From: Schleiferiaceae bacterium
Lineage (GTDB): Bacteria; Bacteroidota; Bacteroidia; Flavobacteriales; Schleiferiaceae
Direction: 5' to 3'
DNA length: 46,239 nucleotides
Assembly: GCA_022565875.1 (NCBI GenBank)
Contig: JAIULY010000001.1
Location: 1-46,239, forward strand
The translations under genes and the position numbers were made by a program. This document shows, in pieces, positions 41,162 through 46,239 of the stretch. How positions within the stretch are numbered: position 1 is the stretch's first letter; each line of letters begins with the position of its first letter. The notes under the pieces are model-generated. The model searched no databases and was not told the DNA's origin. It worked only from the letters and a program-made list of their open reading frames with translations.

Positions 41162-42583
41162 CTAGGACGCTGCGGAGACTTCAAATACAATTGGAACCAT
41201 CCAAAACACATATACAGAAACTATAATAATGGCAATTAGGTTAAACCAAAAGCCATACCTCACCATTTCTGACATTCTTAAAAGTCCAGAACTAAAAACG
41301 AGTGCATTGGGTGGAGTGGCAACTGGCAGCATAAAGGCACATGAGGCGGCCGTAGTAGCGGCCATTAGCAGTATATAAGGATGAACACCCAACGATGCAG
41401 TAAGCGAAACCAATACGGGTAATAACATGGCTGTCGTAGCTAAGTTTGAAGTAACTTCAGTGAGGAAGTTAACTGATGCAACGACAATTAAAAGCAAAAG
41501 CCAAAAGGGAACGCTATCCAATGCTGCTAGTTGCTCGCCTATCCAAAGGGCTAACCCACTACTTTCAAAACCAGCGGCCAAAGCCATACCCCCTCCAAAA
41601 AGCAACAAGATGCCCCAAGGAAGATCTCGAGTATCACTCCAAGTAAGCAATTTGCCTGATGAGCCAGCTGGTATGAGAAACAAGGCTAGCCCACCGCCTA
41701 TTGCAATGTGTGTGTCGTTTAGGTGTTCAAAAAATGGAGTGAGAATCGATGACCGAAATGTCCACAGGAAAGCCATTGATAAAAATACTATCGAAACCTT
41801 TTTCTCCTCCGCAGACCAATGCCCCAAAGCAGCCAAGGCCTCCCTCACGCTGTTGGGTGTTTCTGTAATTGTTGGGGCTTCTCCTGCAATTTGCACCAGA
41901 TAACGCCAGGCTATAAAGAGTAACAACAAGCACATAGGCCCCGCAAAGAAAAACCATTGGGCAAAGCTAAGGTCAACGCCATAGCTGTTTTGTATAATGC
42001 CAGCTAAAACCAAATTAGGAGGCGTGCCAATCAATGTGGCCATGCCTCCAATAGACGCGGCATAGGCGATCGACAACACCAAAGCCTTTCCAAAACGGGG
42101 TGATAAAAGAGCACCTTGCTGTTTGATGACTGCTACGCAAATGGGCAACAGCATAACGGTAGCAGCAGTATTTGAAATCCACATAGATAAAAATGCGGTA
42201 GCTAGCATAAATCCTAAAATAATACGTTTAGGCTCTGAACCAACAAGAAAAATTATATGTAAGGCCAAGCGCTTGTGAAGCTCCCATTTTTCTATAGCTA
42301 TGGCCAAAAGAAATCCTCCCAGAAACAAAAAAACAAATGGGTGCCCATAAGCATTGCTTGTTGCTGTCATGCTTAAACTTTGTGTTAACGGCAGCGCTAA
42401 CAAAGGAATAAGAGCTGTTGCAGCAATTGGAATCACCTCTGTTACCCACCAAATACCCACCCATATTGCCACGCCGAGTACCGCATGACCTTCTAATGAT
42501 AAACCTTGAAAGTTGCAGGCGTAAGCAAAAAACCAAAAGCTTGCTGGCCCTGCTACTGCACCTGTTTTTTGTGCATTAGTCAT
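41162..42583 (-). CDS. SLC13/DASS-family sodium:dicarboxylate or sulfate symporter
   Basis: A 473-aa polytopic inner-membrane protein with about 11-12 helices. The two sodium-binding repeats are visible: MWISNTAATVMLLPI in the N-terminal half and TEVTSNLATTAMLLPV in the C-terminal half, with the family segments WWVTEVIPIAATAL and GTPPNLVLAG. DASS carriers import succinate, citrate or sulfate; which one cannot be told by eye. It starts 10 bp after the stop of a hydrolase lipoprotein gene, so the two form an operon. In a locus-rich sulfated-glycan genome a sulfate role would be notable but is unsupported. Confidence 0.9.
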   Translation of the reverse strand: MTNAQKTGAVAGPASFWFFAYACNFQGLSLEGHAVLGVAIWVGIWWVTEVIPIAATALIPLLALPLTQSLSMTATSNAYGHPFVFLFLGGFLLAIAIEKWELHKRLALHIIFLVGSEPKRIILGFMLATAFLSMWISNTAATVMLLPICVAVIKQQGALLSPRFGKALVLSIAYAASIGGMATLIGTPPNLVLAGIIQNSYGVDLSFAQWFFFAGPMCLLLLFIAWRYLVQIAGEAPTITETPNSVREALAALGHWSAEEKKVSIVFLSMAFLWTFRSSILTPFFEHLNDTHIAIGGGLALFLIPAGSSGKLLTWSDTRDLPWGILLLFGGGMALAAGFESSGLALWIGEQLAALDSVPFWLLLLIVVASVNFLTEVTSNLATTAMLLPVLVSLTASLGVHPYILLMAATTAASCAFMLPVATPPNALVFSSGLLRMSEMVRYGFWFNLIAIIIVSVYVFWMVPIVFEVSAAS

Positions 42584-42593
42584 AATGGATTCG

Positions 42594-43493
42594 TTAAGGA
42601 ATTAGTAGATCAACACTAGCGTTCACAGCATTTATTGCATTGTGATTTAACCCCGGTATAATGTGAAATGACCACGAAAAAGGTGTTTGTAATTGATGGG
42701 CTTTGCTTTGACTTTGATTGAAGAAATAAGTCGCACGTTCCACTCGGGTTAGTCCTTGGGCGTCAGCCAAAGTGTTGCGCCTCAGATTGGATGCATTTGG
42801 GTCATTGTCGTTACTCCCTACTTGAATTTTTATGGGTTTCGAAAAAATACTTGGTAAATCAATGGCTTGTTGTGGTAAACCTCCAAGCCCGTAAGGAAAA
42901 GAAACAGCGTCATCAGGAAGCGTATACCAACCTGCAGCAGAAATCACTGCTCCCGCAAGTGGTAGTTCGGGTTGCACGTAGATTAAGCGGTGGAGAAATT
43001 GAGCGCCAGCTGAATGGCCTATGTAGTAAAAAGCTTCAGGTTGAGCGGGAATTCTATTTTTGACAAACTGAATAAGGTTGGGGATGCAGGAAAAAGTCCA
43101 TTCGGGTTGGGGTAATACTTCCGTTGCAGTTTCCCCATCATTAAAAAGGTTACCCAATTGATAGGCATTGACACTAGGAAACTGCTCCTCGGAAAACTCA
43201 GGTGCGATAATGATAACTTCTTTGCTTTTGGCTTTTGTGATTAATGCATTTCTGTAATTAACCGCATCTCGATTTACACCATGAAACACCATTACCACAG
43301 GGGTTGTGGACGTGGCATTTTCAGGTACAAAATAATAAATACGCATTTGACGCGACGAATTGCCCTGTTCAAAGAGGAAATGTGCAACCCCGCTTCCTTC
43401 CCATAATGGCCCCGAAATGGGTGCTGTTTCTTTACAAGACTCTAAAAAAGAAACCGTTAGAAGCGCAATAAGTATTTTACATCCAAGTCGCAT
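42594..43493 (-). CDS. Alpha/beta-hydrolase lipoprotein
   Basis: A 299-aa protein with a lipobox FLESC (Cys20), so it is probably a membrane-anchored lipoprotein outside the cytoplasm. The hydrolase core has the oxyanion segment VVMVFHGVNRDAVNY, the nucleophile elbow YIGHSAGAQF with the catalytic Ser, and a late His in PGLNHNAINA. It resembles PHB-depolymerase/esterase-like proteins. The ester substrate is unknown. It is the first gene of an operon with the SLC13 transporter, suggesting that the released acid is imported, and it is divergent from a MocR-type regulator that may control it. Confidence 0.78.
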   Translation of the reverse strand: MRLGCKILIALLTVSFLESCKETAPISGPLWEGSGVAHFLFEQGNSSRQMRIYYFVPENATSTTPVVMVFHGVNRDAVNYRNALITKAKSKEVIIIAPEFSEEQFPSVNAYQLGNLFNDGETATEVLPQPEWTFSCIPNLIQFVKNRIPAQPEAFYYIGHSAGAQFLHRLIYVQPELPLAGAVISAAGWYTLPDDAVSFPYGLGGLPQQAIDLPSIFSKPIKIQVGSNDNDPNASNLRRNTLADAQGLTRVERATYFFNQSQSKAHQLQTPFSWSFHIIPGLNHNAINAVNASVDLLIP

Positions 43494-43530: not shown

Positions 43531-43563
43531 CCTTTACATTCGCAATACCACTTTCTATAAATA

Positions 43564-45078
43564 ATGAATACCAGTTTATCGTATTCCGTAGCGCTAATTA
43601 AGGACGCTTTTGAGCAGGAGTTCCAGCCAGGGACTTCAAAATACACAGCGTTATATAGAGCTATTAAAAAGAGCATTCTAAACAAGGATCTACCAGTGGA
43701 TTGGGTAATCCCAAGCACACGCAAATTAGCAACTTTATTGGGTTTCTCCCGCGCTACAGTCATAACCGCCTATGAATTACTGCAACTAGAGAAATTAATT
43801 GTTTCCAAAACGGGCTCAGGCTACCGTGTTGCAGGAACATTTGAGTTCATTGAACAAACCGTTAGCAACGATAACCATACAATTGTTGACAAAAAGTATC
43901 CCGAACTTAGTGTAAAGGGGCGAGCATTCTTAAATAATGTCTCCATTTTAAACCGAACAGAAAACAACACCATTCTCTTCAAACCAGGTTTACCTCCAAT
44001 AGATATTTTCCCTATTAATCGGTGGAAAAACTTATTAAACAACTACTGGCGATACATCAAATCAAGTGAGCTGTCCTACGGGCAATCTTCAGGAAGCTAT
44101 GAACTTAAGCAACAAATTTCAAACTACTTGAAAGTCAACCGGGCGGTGCACGTTTCTCCAGATCAAGTTGTTGTGGTTTCGGGTTCGTTGCAATCTATTT
44201 ACCTTACAGCTAGCGCATTAATTAATCATGGCGATGCCGTAGCCTTAGAGAATCCCACTTTTCCAAACGTTCACTCAATATTCAAAAGCTTCTCAGCAAC
44301 CTTATTGCCCGTTTCTTGTGATAGTGAAGGTTTGGATGTGCGAGACCTCCAAAAGTCTGCTTTAACACATCCGTTAAAACTAATTCATGTAACCCCAACC
44401 AATCACTACCCTCTCGGTATTCGTATGTCATTAAATCGAAGAAAAGAACTCTTAGAGTTTTGCTCAGAAACAGGAGCTTATATCTTAGAAAATGATTACG
44501 AACATGAAATTGGAAATCAGGACAACGCACTACCAACGCTATATGCATTGGACAACGATGCTCGGGTAATTTATTTGGGGACGTTTAATCGATTGTTGTA
44601 TCCTTCGATTCGGTTGGGTTTTATGGTTGTGCCAAAACAACTTGCGCCAGCAATAGGCGCTCTACAGGAACACTCACACCGATTTGTTTCGCCAGCAACA
44701 CAAATGGTAATGGGACAATTTATCGACAAAGGCTATTTGTATCAACATGTAAGCACTCTAAAAGAGGTAGGCCAGCAGCGTTTTGAATTATTTTTACATC
44801 TGCTCAGTGCCTATAATTTACCCATTACCATACTGCAAAAAGAGTTCCTCAGTTTGCATGTCGTTCTCCAATTTGAAAAAAGTGTCTCACAAAAAAAAGA
44901 ACAACAGATTGTTGCCGTATTGAAACAGGCTGGCATTGTTGTTTTTTCTCTTTCAAAATGCTTTGTGGCTACTCCAGTAAAGACAGGTTTGATTGTTGGT
45001 TTTGCGACCGTAAACACGACATTAATTAGAAAGAATGTCAAAACTTTGGCGCAGCTTCTCGCACAGTATTTGGCGTAA
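43564..45078 (+). CDS. MocR/GabR-type regulator lacking the PLP lysine
   Basis: A 504-aa protein with an N-terminal GntR-type winged helix (about 20-90: YRAIKKSIL, IPSTRKLATLLGFSRATVITAYELL, GSGYRV), a linker, and a class I aminotransferase-like domain (about 135-504). In MocR proteins this domain binds PLP through a Lys in the motif GTFSK. Here the motif is GTFNR (339-343), with Arg343 (codon CGA, 44590-44592) in place of the Schiff-base Lys. Other landmarks remain: VTPTNHYPLG, ENDYEHE with the Asp that contacts the pyridine nitrogen, and SIRLGF. It may bind a ligand or PLP non-covalently. It is divergent from the hydrolase-SLC13 operon, its likely target. Confidence 0.86.
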   Translation: MNTSLSYSVALIKDAFEQEFQPGTSKYTALYRAIKKSILNKDLPVDWVIPSTRKLATLLGFSRATVITAYELLQLEKLIVSKTGSGYRVAGTFEFIEQTVSNDNHTIVDKKYPELSVKGRAFLNNVSILNRTENNTILFKPGLPPIDIFPINRWKNLLNNYWRYIKSSELSYGQSSGSYELKQQISNYLKVNRAVHVSPDQVVVVSGSLQSIYLTASALINHGDAVALENPTFPNVHSIFKSFSATLLPVSCDSEGLDVRDLQKSALTHPLKLIHVTPTNHYPLGIRMSLNRRKELLEFCSETGAYILENDYEHEIGNQDNALPTLYALDNDARVIYLGTFNRLLYPSIRLGFMVVPKQLAPAIGALQEHSHRFVSPATQMVMGQFIDKGYLYQHVSTLKEVGQQRFELFLHLLSAYNLPITILQKEFLSLHVVLQFEKSVSQKKEQQIVAVLKQAGIVVFSLSKCFVATPVKTGLIVGFATVNTTLIRKNVKTLAQLLAQYLA

Positions 45079-45151
45079 CTGGTATGTTAAGTTTTTTTGG
45101 ATTGGTATTTTCCATCCTTAAACAAATCAGGAAGTTTGTAGGTATATTTTC

Positions 45152-45194
45152 TAGATAATGAAACTGTTATCTAAATTCTCTGACTCTCGGAGTC
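45152..45194 (+). promoter_or_regulatory. Two hairpins in the region before the last gene
   Basis: TAGATAA/TTATCTA (45152-45158 and 45167-45173) and GACTC/GAGTC (45182-45186 and 45190-45194, loop TCG) lie 27-69 bp before the ATG at 45221. They may form a leader structure or end the MocR transcript weakly. No TAnnTTTG box is clear. Confidence 0.35.
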
Positions 45195-45220
45195 TTTATG
45201 AAAATTTAAAACCCTCCAAA

Positions 45221-46239
45221 ATGAAAAGATTTACACTTTTACTTACCGCTTTGTTCCTTTCTTGGGGCATGATTTCCCAGAATGTATTTATGGTAGAACA
45301 CTTTGACTACCCGGCGAACACCCCGCTACAATCTAATGGCTGGACTGCTCACAGTGCGGGAACAACTAACCCCATTCAAGTGGAAGCCCCTGGGTTAGCT
45401 TGGTCACAAACGCCTTATTTAGGTAGCGGCATTGGCAATGCAGCCGCGGTAAATAATACAGGTAGTGATGAGAATTTGGCGCTTTCTGATTTGCAATTAG
45501 ATTCAGGTGCTGTTTACACCTCTTTCTTGGCACGTATGAATGGGGCTGTAACGACCACAGGTGTATTTTTTCATCTCGGTCAGTATAGCAACACATCAAC
45601 ACCTGACCCCTCGAATATTAGTAGTGCCTTTAGGGCTCGTTTGCACATGCTACCTGGAACCACAGCAGACAAGTATAAATTAGGGCTGACCTTTAATCAA
45701 GCCTCAGCCAGTGGCTCCGACATTACCACAGCAGAGTTTGACACTGGCACCACTTATTTGTACGTTATCAAATATGAATTTTTTCCCGGACCAAACAATG
45801 ACTCTGTTAGTTTATATGTTTTTGAGGATGGCGACATTATTGACCTGGAGCCTAGCACTCCCGTACTCGGGCCTTTTGGAGGAACGCAAAATGATTTAGC
45901 TTTCTTGCAGTTGGTGGCTCTACGTCAATTTAACGCGAACCAAAACACTACAATAGACGGCATCATTGTGCAAGACACATGGGATATGGTTCCAAATTTT
46001 ATTGCTGCCGAACCTCTAATTCCTGCCAACAACACTATGCTCCAGGTTACAGGCCCTATAGCCACTCCAGTAACAATTTCTTGGACTGCAGCGCAAAACA
46101 TTGGCACACCCATTACCTACGAGTGGCAACTTGCAGCACGTGCCGCCGGCAATTTTTCTACACCTTTGCTTGCGTTACCGGGTGACAACAGTGGCATAGA
46201 CACAACGCTTTCATTGACCATTGGCGCGATAGACGCGGC
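45221..46239 (+). CDS. Secreted surface protein, 3' end outside window
   Basis: The frame stays open from the ATG at 45221 to the window end, giving 339 residues of a longer protein. The signal peptide is MKRFTLLLTALFLSWGMIS, cleaved before QN. The following EHFDYPANTPLQSNGWTAHS, SGIGNAAAVNNTGSDENLAL and a jelly-roll-like region (to about 260) are typical of large Bacteroidota T9SS-exported proteins. An Ig-like segment starts near 265 (TISWTAAQNIG, YEWQLAA). A T9SS sorting domain is expected beyond the window but cannot be seen. An in-frame ATG at 45158 would add 21 residues before the signal peptide and is rejected. Confidence 0.75.
   Translation, partial: MKRFTLLLTALFLSWGMISQNVFMVEHFDYPANTPLQSNGWTAHSAGTTNPIQVEAPGLAWSQTPYLGSGIGNAAAVNNTGSDENLALSDLQLDSGAVYTSFLARMNGAVTTTGVFFHLGQYSNTSTPDPSNISSAFRARLHMLPGTTADKYKLGLTFNQASASGSDITTAEFDTGTTYLYVIKYEFFPGPNNDSVSLYVFEDGDIIDLEPSTPVLGPFGGTQNDLAFLQLVALRQFNANQNTTIDGIIVQDTWDMVPNFIAAEPLIPANNTMLQVTGPIATPVTISWTAAQNIGTPITYEWQLAARAAGNFSTPLLALPGDNSGIDTTLSLTIGAIDA

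Follow-up and report, generated by a model that had tools for sequence, protein, structure and literature searches.

A MocR-like regulator clade of Bacteroidota with arginine at the PLP-lysine position, encoded beside a putative beta-aspartyl gene set

Introduction

In the literature, MocR regulators count as PLP proteins, in which the inducer is sensed through the exchange of an internal aldimine for an external aldimine. All MocR-like regulators have been stated to carry a conserved lysine where PLP is attached (PMC2018728), and the factors typically recognise direct repeats that are two to three helical turns apart (PMC5320631). For GabR of Bacillus subtilis, a member of the MocR subfamily (PDB 4N0B, 4MGR and 5T4J), ATACCA direct repeats were reported as the binding site (PMC4494728), and the roles of the GabR residues used for comparison in this work were taken from PMC6917764. 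PdxR is represented by the NCBIfam equivalog NF052282 and by the Bacillus clausii structures 7PQ9 and 7ZLA. BioL of Elizabethkingia is a further example, in which the K340A exchange abolishes repression (PMC12915131).

Two further systems are also relevant here. Cyanophycin utilisation loci contain a cyanophycinase, an isoaspartyl dipeptidase and transporters (PMC10206079), and the poly(aspartic acid) hydrolase PahZ1 of Pedobacter has been reported to cleave the beta-amide bonds of poly(Asp) (PMC4456602).

The regulator described here has the MocR architecture and comes from the same phylum as BioL, whereas BioL keeps its lysine, K340, and regulates biotin synthesis (PMC12915131). In the literature searched, no report of a MocR clade without the lysine was found, and an earlier mention is possible as the main MocR reviews were outside that search. 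No paper on isoaspartyl compounds and MocR regulators together was found in the same literature.

Results and discussion

The regulator gene and its fold

The window, i.e. the whole stretch of 46,239 nucleotides that was analysed, belongs to a 3.15 Mb draft genome (about 93% complete). The regulator gene and its two domains were located as follows.

43564..45078, + strand: regulator gene, 504 amino acids, MocR architecture with Arg343 and Asn310 (open reading frame, domain matches and alignment to GabR)
43642..43830, + strand: GntR-type winged helix-turn-helix domain, residues 27-89 (PF00392, 38.1 bits against a cut-off of 27)
44053..44967, + strand: aminotransferase-like domain Aminotran_1_2, residues 164-468 (PF00155, 73.2 bits, above the cut-off; GabR fold)

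The regulator shares the winged helix and the fold-type-I domain with GabR at 22-24% identity, and its best sequence match in the PDB was PdxR (E 2e-43). An AlphaFold2 monomer model was built from 64 clade sequences, giving a mean pLDDT of 85 with low-confidence stretches at residues 93-108 and 160-172. GabR was the top rank for this model in Foldseek, and VIA-align gave a Z of 36.5 against 4n0b and of about 36 against structures of the GabR C-terminal domain, with a fit of 2.6-2.9 Å to the GabR structures over approximately 330 residues. According to the model, the GabR fold is kept in the regulator. The regulator is a MocR relative in its architecture, fold, descent and type of operator, and its DNA binding probably resembles that of other MocR relatives. 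By the criterion of the PLP lysine, its residues place it outside the PLP-dependent MocR factors.

Residues of the active site

The codons that correspond to residues of known role in GabR are listed below.

44590..44592, + strand: Arg343 codon CGA, position of GabR Lys312 (Schiff base), from the alignment to GabR
44491..44493, + strand: Asn310 codon, position of GabR Asp279 (PLP ring nitrogen), from the alignment; invariant in 87 clade sequences
44611..44613, + strand: Arg350 codon, position of GabR Arg319 (PLP phosphate), retained, from the alignment and clade conservation
44956..44958, + strand: Lys465 codon, position of GabR Arg430 (substrate carboxylate), common and not invariant, from the alignment

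Positions 44578-44592 of the window read GGGACGTTTAATCGA, which translates to GTFNR. In the phmmer alignment with GabR 4n0b, GTFNR falls on GTFSK and R343 is opposite K312; the other pairs (regulator/GabR) are R350/R319, Y312/Y281, F233/Y205, N235/R207 and K465/R430, and N310 is opposite D279. A preliminary description of this DNA had proposed that GTFNR replaces GTFSK, with Arg343 encoded by CGA, in a protein whose DNA-binding domain and aminotransferase-like fold are intact; the window sequence, the GabR alignment, the domain matches and the GabR-like model agree with it on each of these points. The replacement of Asp279 by Asn310 goes beyond that description, as do the neighbouring genes and the operators treated below, and as the positions of Lys312 and Asp279 are both replaced, two cofactor contacts have been lost rather than one. 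GabR also differs in Arg207, its contact to GABA, which is Asn in the regulator. As a matter of chemistry, an internal aldimine should not be able to form with Arg343.

A lysine from a nearby position that clearly takes over in the PLP site, which would have spoken against the preliminary description, was not found, and Lys465 is the sole conserved lysine of the pocket. A Schiff base from this residue could be considered, since it occupies a substrate-contact position and is present in 76 out of 87 clade members. However, the residue is E, N, M, H, R, A, S or D in ten members, and the Lys-bearing sister group described below has lysine at both the 343 and 465 positions, showing that Lys465 did not arise as a replacement; we therefore consider this explanation very improbable. 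A heterodimer with a Lys-bearing paralogue was also considered and rejected, with only one GntR-domain protein found in the assembly, which is about 93% complete.

Conservation across the clade

In motif-unbiased searches with the whole protein, Asn310 and Arg343 were present together in 24 out of 24 genomes (14 of the 88 in the same family, 3 more in a phylum sample and 7 more in a class sample). A further 80 loci came from a motif-seeded contig scan with the patterns [GS]TFNR and IENDYEH, their records bearing labels such as Flavobacteriales, Cytophagaceae and Bacteroidales; as the scan patterns include GTFNR and IENDYEH, these loci are not independent evidence of invariance. Altogether, both residues were found in 87/87 distinct clade sequences examined. 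A large share of the genomes used are draft assemblies.

All six arginine codons were used at position 343 (AGA 20, CGC 18, CGT 14, CGA 12, AGG 12 and CGG 11), in a tally that takes in a single Asp+Arg protein (L121) and excludes a sequence with undetermined residues. Lysine was never found at this position in the clade, even though a single substitution separates AGA from AAA and AGG from AAG. The comparison indicates that Arg343 and Asn310 are held by selection.

A sequencing error or a decaying gene is almost inconceivable as the source of Arg343. Nothing was found in its favour except the draft state of the source assembly (312 contigs), and it is contradicted by the arginine in all of the independently searched genomes, by the codon diversity across the 87 sequences, by the open frame with zero internal stops and by the GC content of the gene (40.1% compared to 40.2% for the window). 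At the level of the clade, codon diversity and conservation rule it out. The check suggested in the preliminary description, whether the arginine is clade-conserved, is answered in favour of a conserved residue, and its argument against a decaying gene is supported. The clade members also form one group in the tree.

Median pairwise identity in the clade is 47%, and 43 positions are invariant, with many of these located in the pocket. This bears on the possibility that the aminotransferase-like domain serves only as a scaffold for dimerisation, making the protein a constitutive repressor or activator that needs no small ligand. The loss of both aldimine-defining residues is consistent with such a role, as is EnuR K302H, which is a constitutive repressor (PMC8739950). 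However, the invariant pocket positions argue against it and strictly held Arg343 and Asn310 are not expected of a pure scaffold, making this explanation improbable.

Tyr312, an aromatic residue at 233, Thr340, the Gly207-Ser208 turn and Arg350 are also conserved in the clade. The main rival explanation is based on these residues: PLP, PMP or a preformed adduct of PLP and an amino acid could be bound non-covalently in the retained phosphate cup, so that B6 or the adduct is sensed. The ColD-type dehydratases provide a precedent, being fold-type-I proteins in which the lysine is replaced and PMP is used. Against this, the ring-nitrogen Asp is Asn in every clade member, Tyr205 and Arg207 of GabR are Phe and Asn, respectively, the recurring neighbours include no pdx genes, and the Lys302His exchange in EnuR abolished PLP incorporation (PMC8739950). 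Non-covalent PLP or PMP binding is therefore rather unlikely in our view, while being the strongest of the rivals.

Origin of the clade

When 82 proteins were placed in a tree, all rows with Asn and Arg fell on one side of a branch with a support of 99 (quick search with SH-aLRT support; some branches were long). A sister group of three proteins (L114-L116) from another family of the phylum carries GTFNK and EDDYDHEF. These regulators are 39-41% identical to the regulator, share the GTFN motif and have a ATACCAATT half-site upstream; they differ in having kept Lys and Asp and in lacking an exact ATACCA-N17-ATACCA repeat. With Lys and Asp in the sister group, the clade most likely goes back to a regulator with both residues, and the lysine and the ring-nitrogen aspartate were apparently exchanged for Arg343 and Asn310 once.

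The sister regulators have different neighbours, namely a DapB-like dehydrogenase, an aminotransferase-like protein and an amidohydrolase (names read from sequence only), and neither PahZ1 nor IadA was found in these neighbourhoods. The conserved cluster of the sister regulators (L165-L167) looks like an amino-acid catabolic system.

Neighbouring genes

Three genes flank the regulator in the window.

42594..43493, - strand: homologue of poly(aspartic acid) hydrolase-1 (PahZ1), divergent, predicted lipoprotein (PDB 6ve6 E 2.5e-49, 9o7u E 5e-43; cluster C5 in 55/81 loci)
41162..42583, - strand: DASS-family sodium/anion symporter (TIGR00785 above the cut-off; cluster C7 in 34 loci)
45158..46237, + strand: gene for a secreted protein, truncated by the end of the contig (open reading frame open at the 3' end; cluster C9 in 9 loci)

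The PahZ1 homologue shows full-length similarity to 6ve6, over residues 34-284. As LpqC (3d0k) matches it too (E 1e-38), poly(aspartic acid) is a candidate substrate only.

Proteins encoded within 8 kb of the regulator at 81 clade loci were clustered. The recurring families were IadA (61 loci), DcuC (61), a porin (60), an M14 peptidase (58), the PahZ1-like hydrolase (55) and the DASS symporter (34), together with lamin-tail-domain (LTD) secreted proteins. Families were named by models (TIGR01975 above the cut-off for IadA, DcuC models, Peptidase_M14 and LTD), with PDB matches also used for the isoaspartyl dipeptidase and PahZ1, while "porin" was read from sequence and had no Pfam match. For example, the IadA copy of locus L063 scored 381.7 bits against the TIGR01975 cut-off of 331.25, and the copy in the source genome is 60% identical to it. 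In the source genome the rest of the set lies on another contig (C31, locus L156), in the order secreted protein, LTD, DcuC, IadA, porin, M14, porin. Across the loci, the operon repeatedly opens with one or two LTD secreted proteins (e.g. L156 7614-8615).

The theme common to these genes, as far as their family names indicate, is the beta-aspartyl bond. The gene set differs from the gabTD genes of GabR in its predicted beta-aspartyl catabolism, and it resembles the cyanophycin utilisation loci in being a scavenging-type cluster that combines transporters and an isoaspartyl dipeptidase, whereas among the recurring families a PahZ1-like hydrolase stands in the place of cyanophycinase. A cyanophycinase as the partner of IadA was rejected, as the only S51 peptidase found in the source genome appears to be a dipeptidase E-like protein of 234 amino acids on a different contig.

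No vitamin B6 (pdx) gene families were found among the recurring neighbours at the clade loci. The regulator scores 353.1 bits with the PdxR model NF052282 (cut-off 320); as a protein that lacks the PLP lysine still scores above the threshold of this model, the names given to clade members in databases are likely to be wrong. The name PdxR is not supported for this regulator, being at odds with the residues (neither the Lys nor the Asp is present) and with the neighbourhood, and the clade can serve to flag this likely misannotation.

Among the 88 genomes of the family, 13 had both the regulator and IadA, 1 only the regulator, 4 only IadA and 70 neither (Fisher p 2.6e-11, uncorrected for relatedness). 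A strict one-to-one link is broken in G043, G057, G058 and G059, which have IadA and no regulator. Two loci of small-genome relatives, L163 (G057:C19) and L164 (G043:C32), have the porin-M14-porin-IadA-DcuC-LTD set without the regulator or exact operators, and G057 contains a PahZ1 gene as well.

Predicted operators

A repeat shared among the clade loci was found on both sides of the regulator gene.

43545..43573, + strand: predicted operator 1, ATACCA-N17-ATACCA, with box 2 overlapping regulator codons 2-4 (shared repeat)
45080..45108, - strand: predicted operator 2, ATACCA-N17-ATACCA, between the regulator and the next gene (shared repeat)
43535..43542, + strand: TACATTCG, putative promoter element similar to TAnnTTTG, the -7 element of Bacteroidota, immediately ahead of box 1 of operator 1 (profile of the aligned upstream regions)

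By 6-mer count, ATACCA was present in 55 out of 78 upstream regions, compared to 4.4 expected, and the direct repeats had a 23-bp period, i.e. about two helical turns, in 45 of 46 successive pairs. The exact ATACCA-N17-ATACCA form was found at 85 sites in 81 related loci (0.2 expected in shuffles), with 52 of the exact sites on the 5' side of the regulator and 22 on the 3' side. Half-sites of this sequence are shared with GabR, and the spacing agrees with the direct repeats of MocR factors at two to three turns. The window has exactly two exact sites, and no others were found in the 3.15 Mb genome.

An extended form starting with ATACCAATT was present in 8/14 regulator-bearing genomes and 0/74 other genomes of the family (p 4.7e-8). 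The bare ATACCA-N17-ATACCA was rejected as a genome-wide detector, with chance matches in many regulator-less genomes, and one-mismatch sites elsewhere in the source genome numbered 21, compared to 13 for the reversed control. Only the extended form or a position adjoining the gene is a discriminating signal. In G034, where the IadA operon and the regulator are on different contigs, the IadA contig has its own exact site. The C31 operon of the source genome gives weaker evidence, with ATACCAATT and a degenerate partner 23 bp away (L156 6283-6311).

As box 1 is directly behind the -7-like element, binding is expected to block transcription from the regulator's own promoter. The frame begins with ATG AAT ACC AGT, which box 2 overlaps (window 43564-43575; loci L034, L043, L086 and others). 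Due to this overlap, the predicted operator partly dictates the conserved MNTN/MNTS start of many orthologues.

Possible mode of action

With lysine exchanged for arginine and genes for the digestion of unusual aspartate-linked peptides adjoining, what the clade regulator senses is probably not covalently bound B6. The observation of arginine at the PLP-lysine position is confirmed, and the interpretation given in the preliminary description, that the protein senses PLP non-covalently, senses another ligand or acts without one, is supported as a whole. We propose, with about equal confidence for and against, that the regulator is a selected, aldimine-incapable MocR derivative which controls the use of beta-aspartyl peptides or polymers and whose pocket would sense a metabolite of the pathway.

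Under this proposal, the winged helix would most likely bind the ATACCA-N17-ATACCA repeats, as suggested by the conservation of the sites. The repeats adjoin the genes of the regulator and the PahZ1-like hydrolase and, in related genomes, precede the beta-aspartyl catabolic operon, and their occupation would repress the regulator's own promoter. The metabolite, for which aspartate or a beta-aspartyl dipeptide is the likeliest candidate, may be sensed by the pseudo-aminotransferase domain in a non-covalent manner. Its carboxylates would be bound by the cations Arg343, Arg350 (which is retained) and, in most cases, Lys465. The ligand would then change DNA binding in such a way that the PahZ1-like hydrolase, the DASS and DcuC transporters, the porins, the M14 peptidase and the isoaspartyl dipeptidase could be made when substrate is present.

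The conservation of Arg343 and Asn310, the single tree group, the GabR fold, the kept Arg350, the operators, the neighbours and the co-occurrence with IadA all fit this proposal. Against it, the phosphate-site arginine, Tyr312, the aromatic residue at 233 and Thr340 equally fit non-covalent PLP or PMP, the second box at the C31 IadA operon is degenerate, and four genomes have the IadA cluster without the regulator. A more far-reaching form of the proposal is tentative, and we place it a little short of an even chance: the clade may have given up PLP altogether, with the active site becoming a direct receptor for Asp or beta-aspartyl peptides and the lysine reused as a ligand-binding arginine, in order to control a Bacteroidota system, not described so far, for using beta-aspartyl polymers or damaged (isoaspartyl) proteins.

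In this clade the loss of the lysine was fixed in evolution and goes together with operators of its own and a coherent set of genes. This suggests that the signalling fold can work without aldimine chemistry, and the Lys-bearing sister group offers a matched comparison for how it does so. The clade also offers a concrete starting point for learning how PahZ1-type hydrolases are regulated and, perhaps, what their natural substrate is.

An independent change from Lys to Arg was seen in L121 (G446:C9:36363-37547), a protein of another MocR subfamily, which has GSFGR and keeps the Asp.
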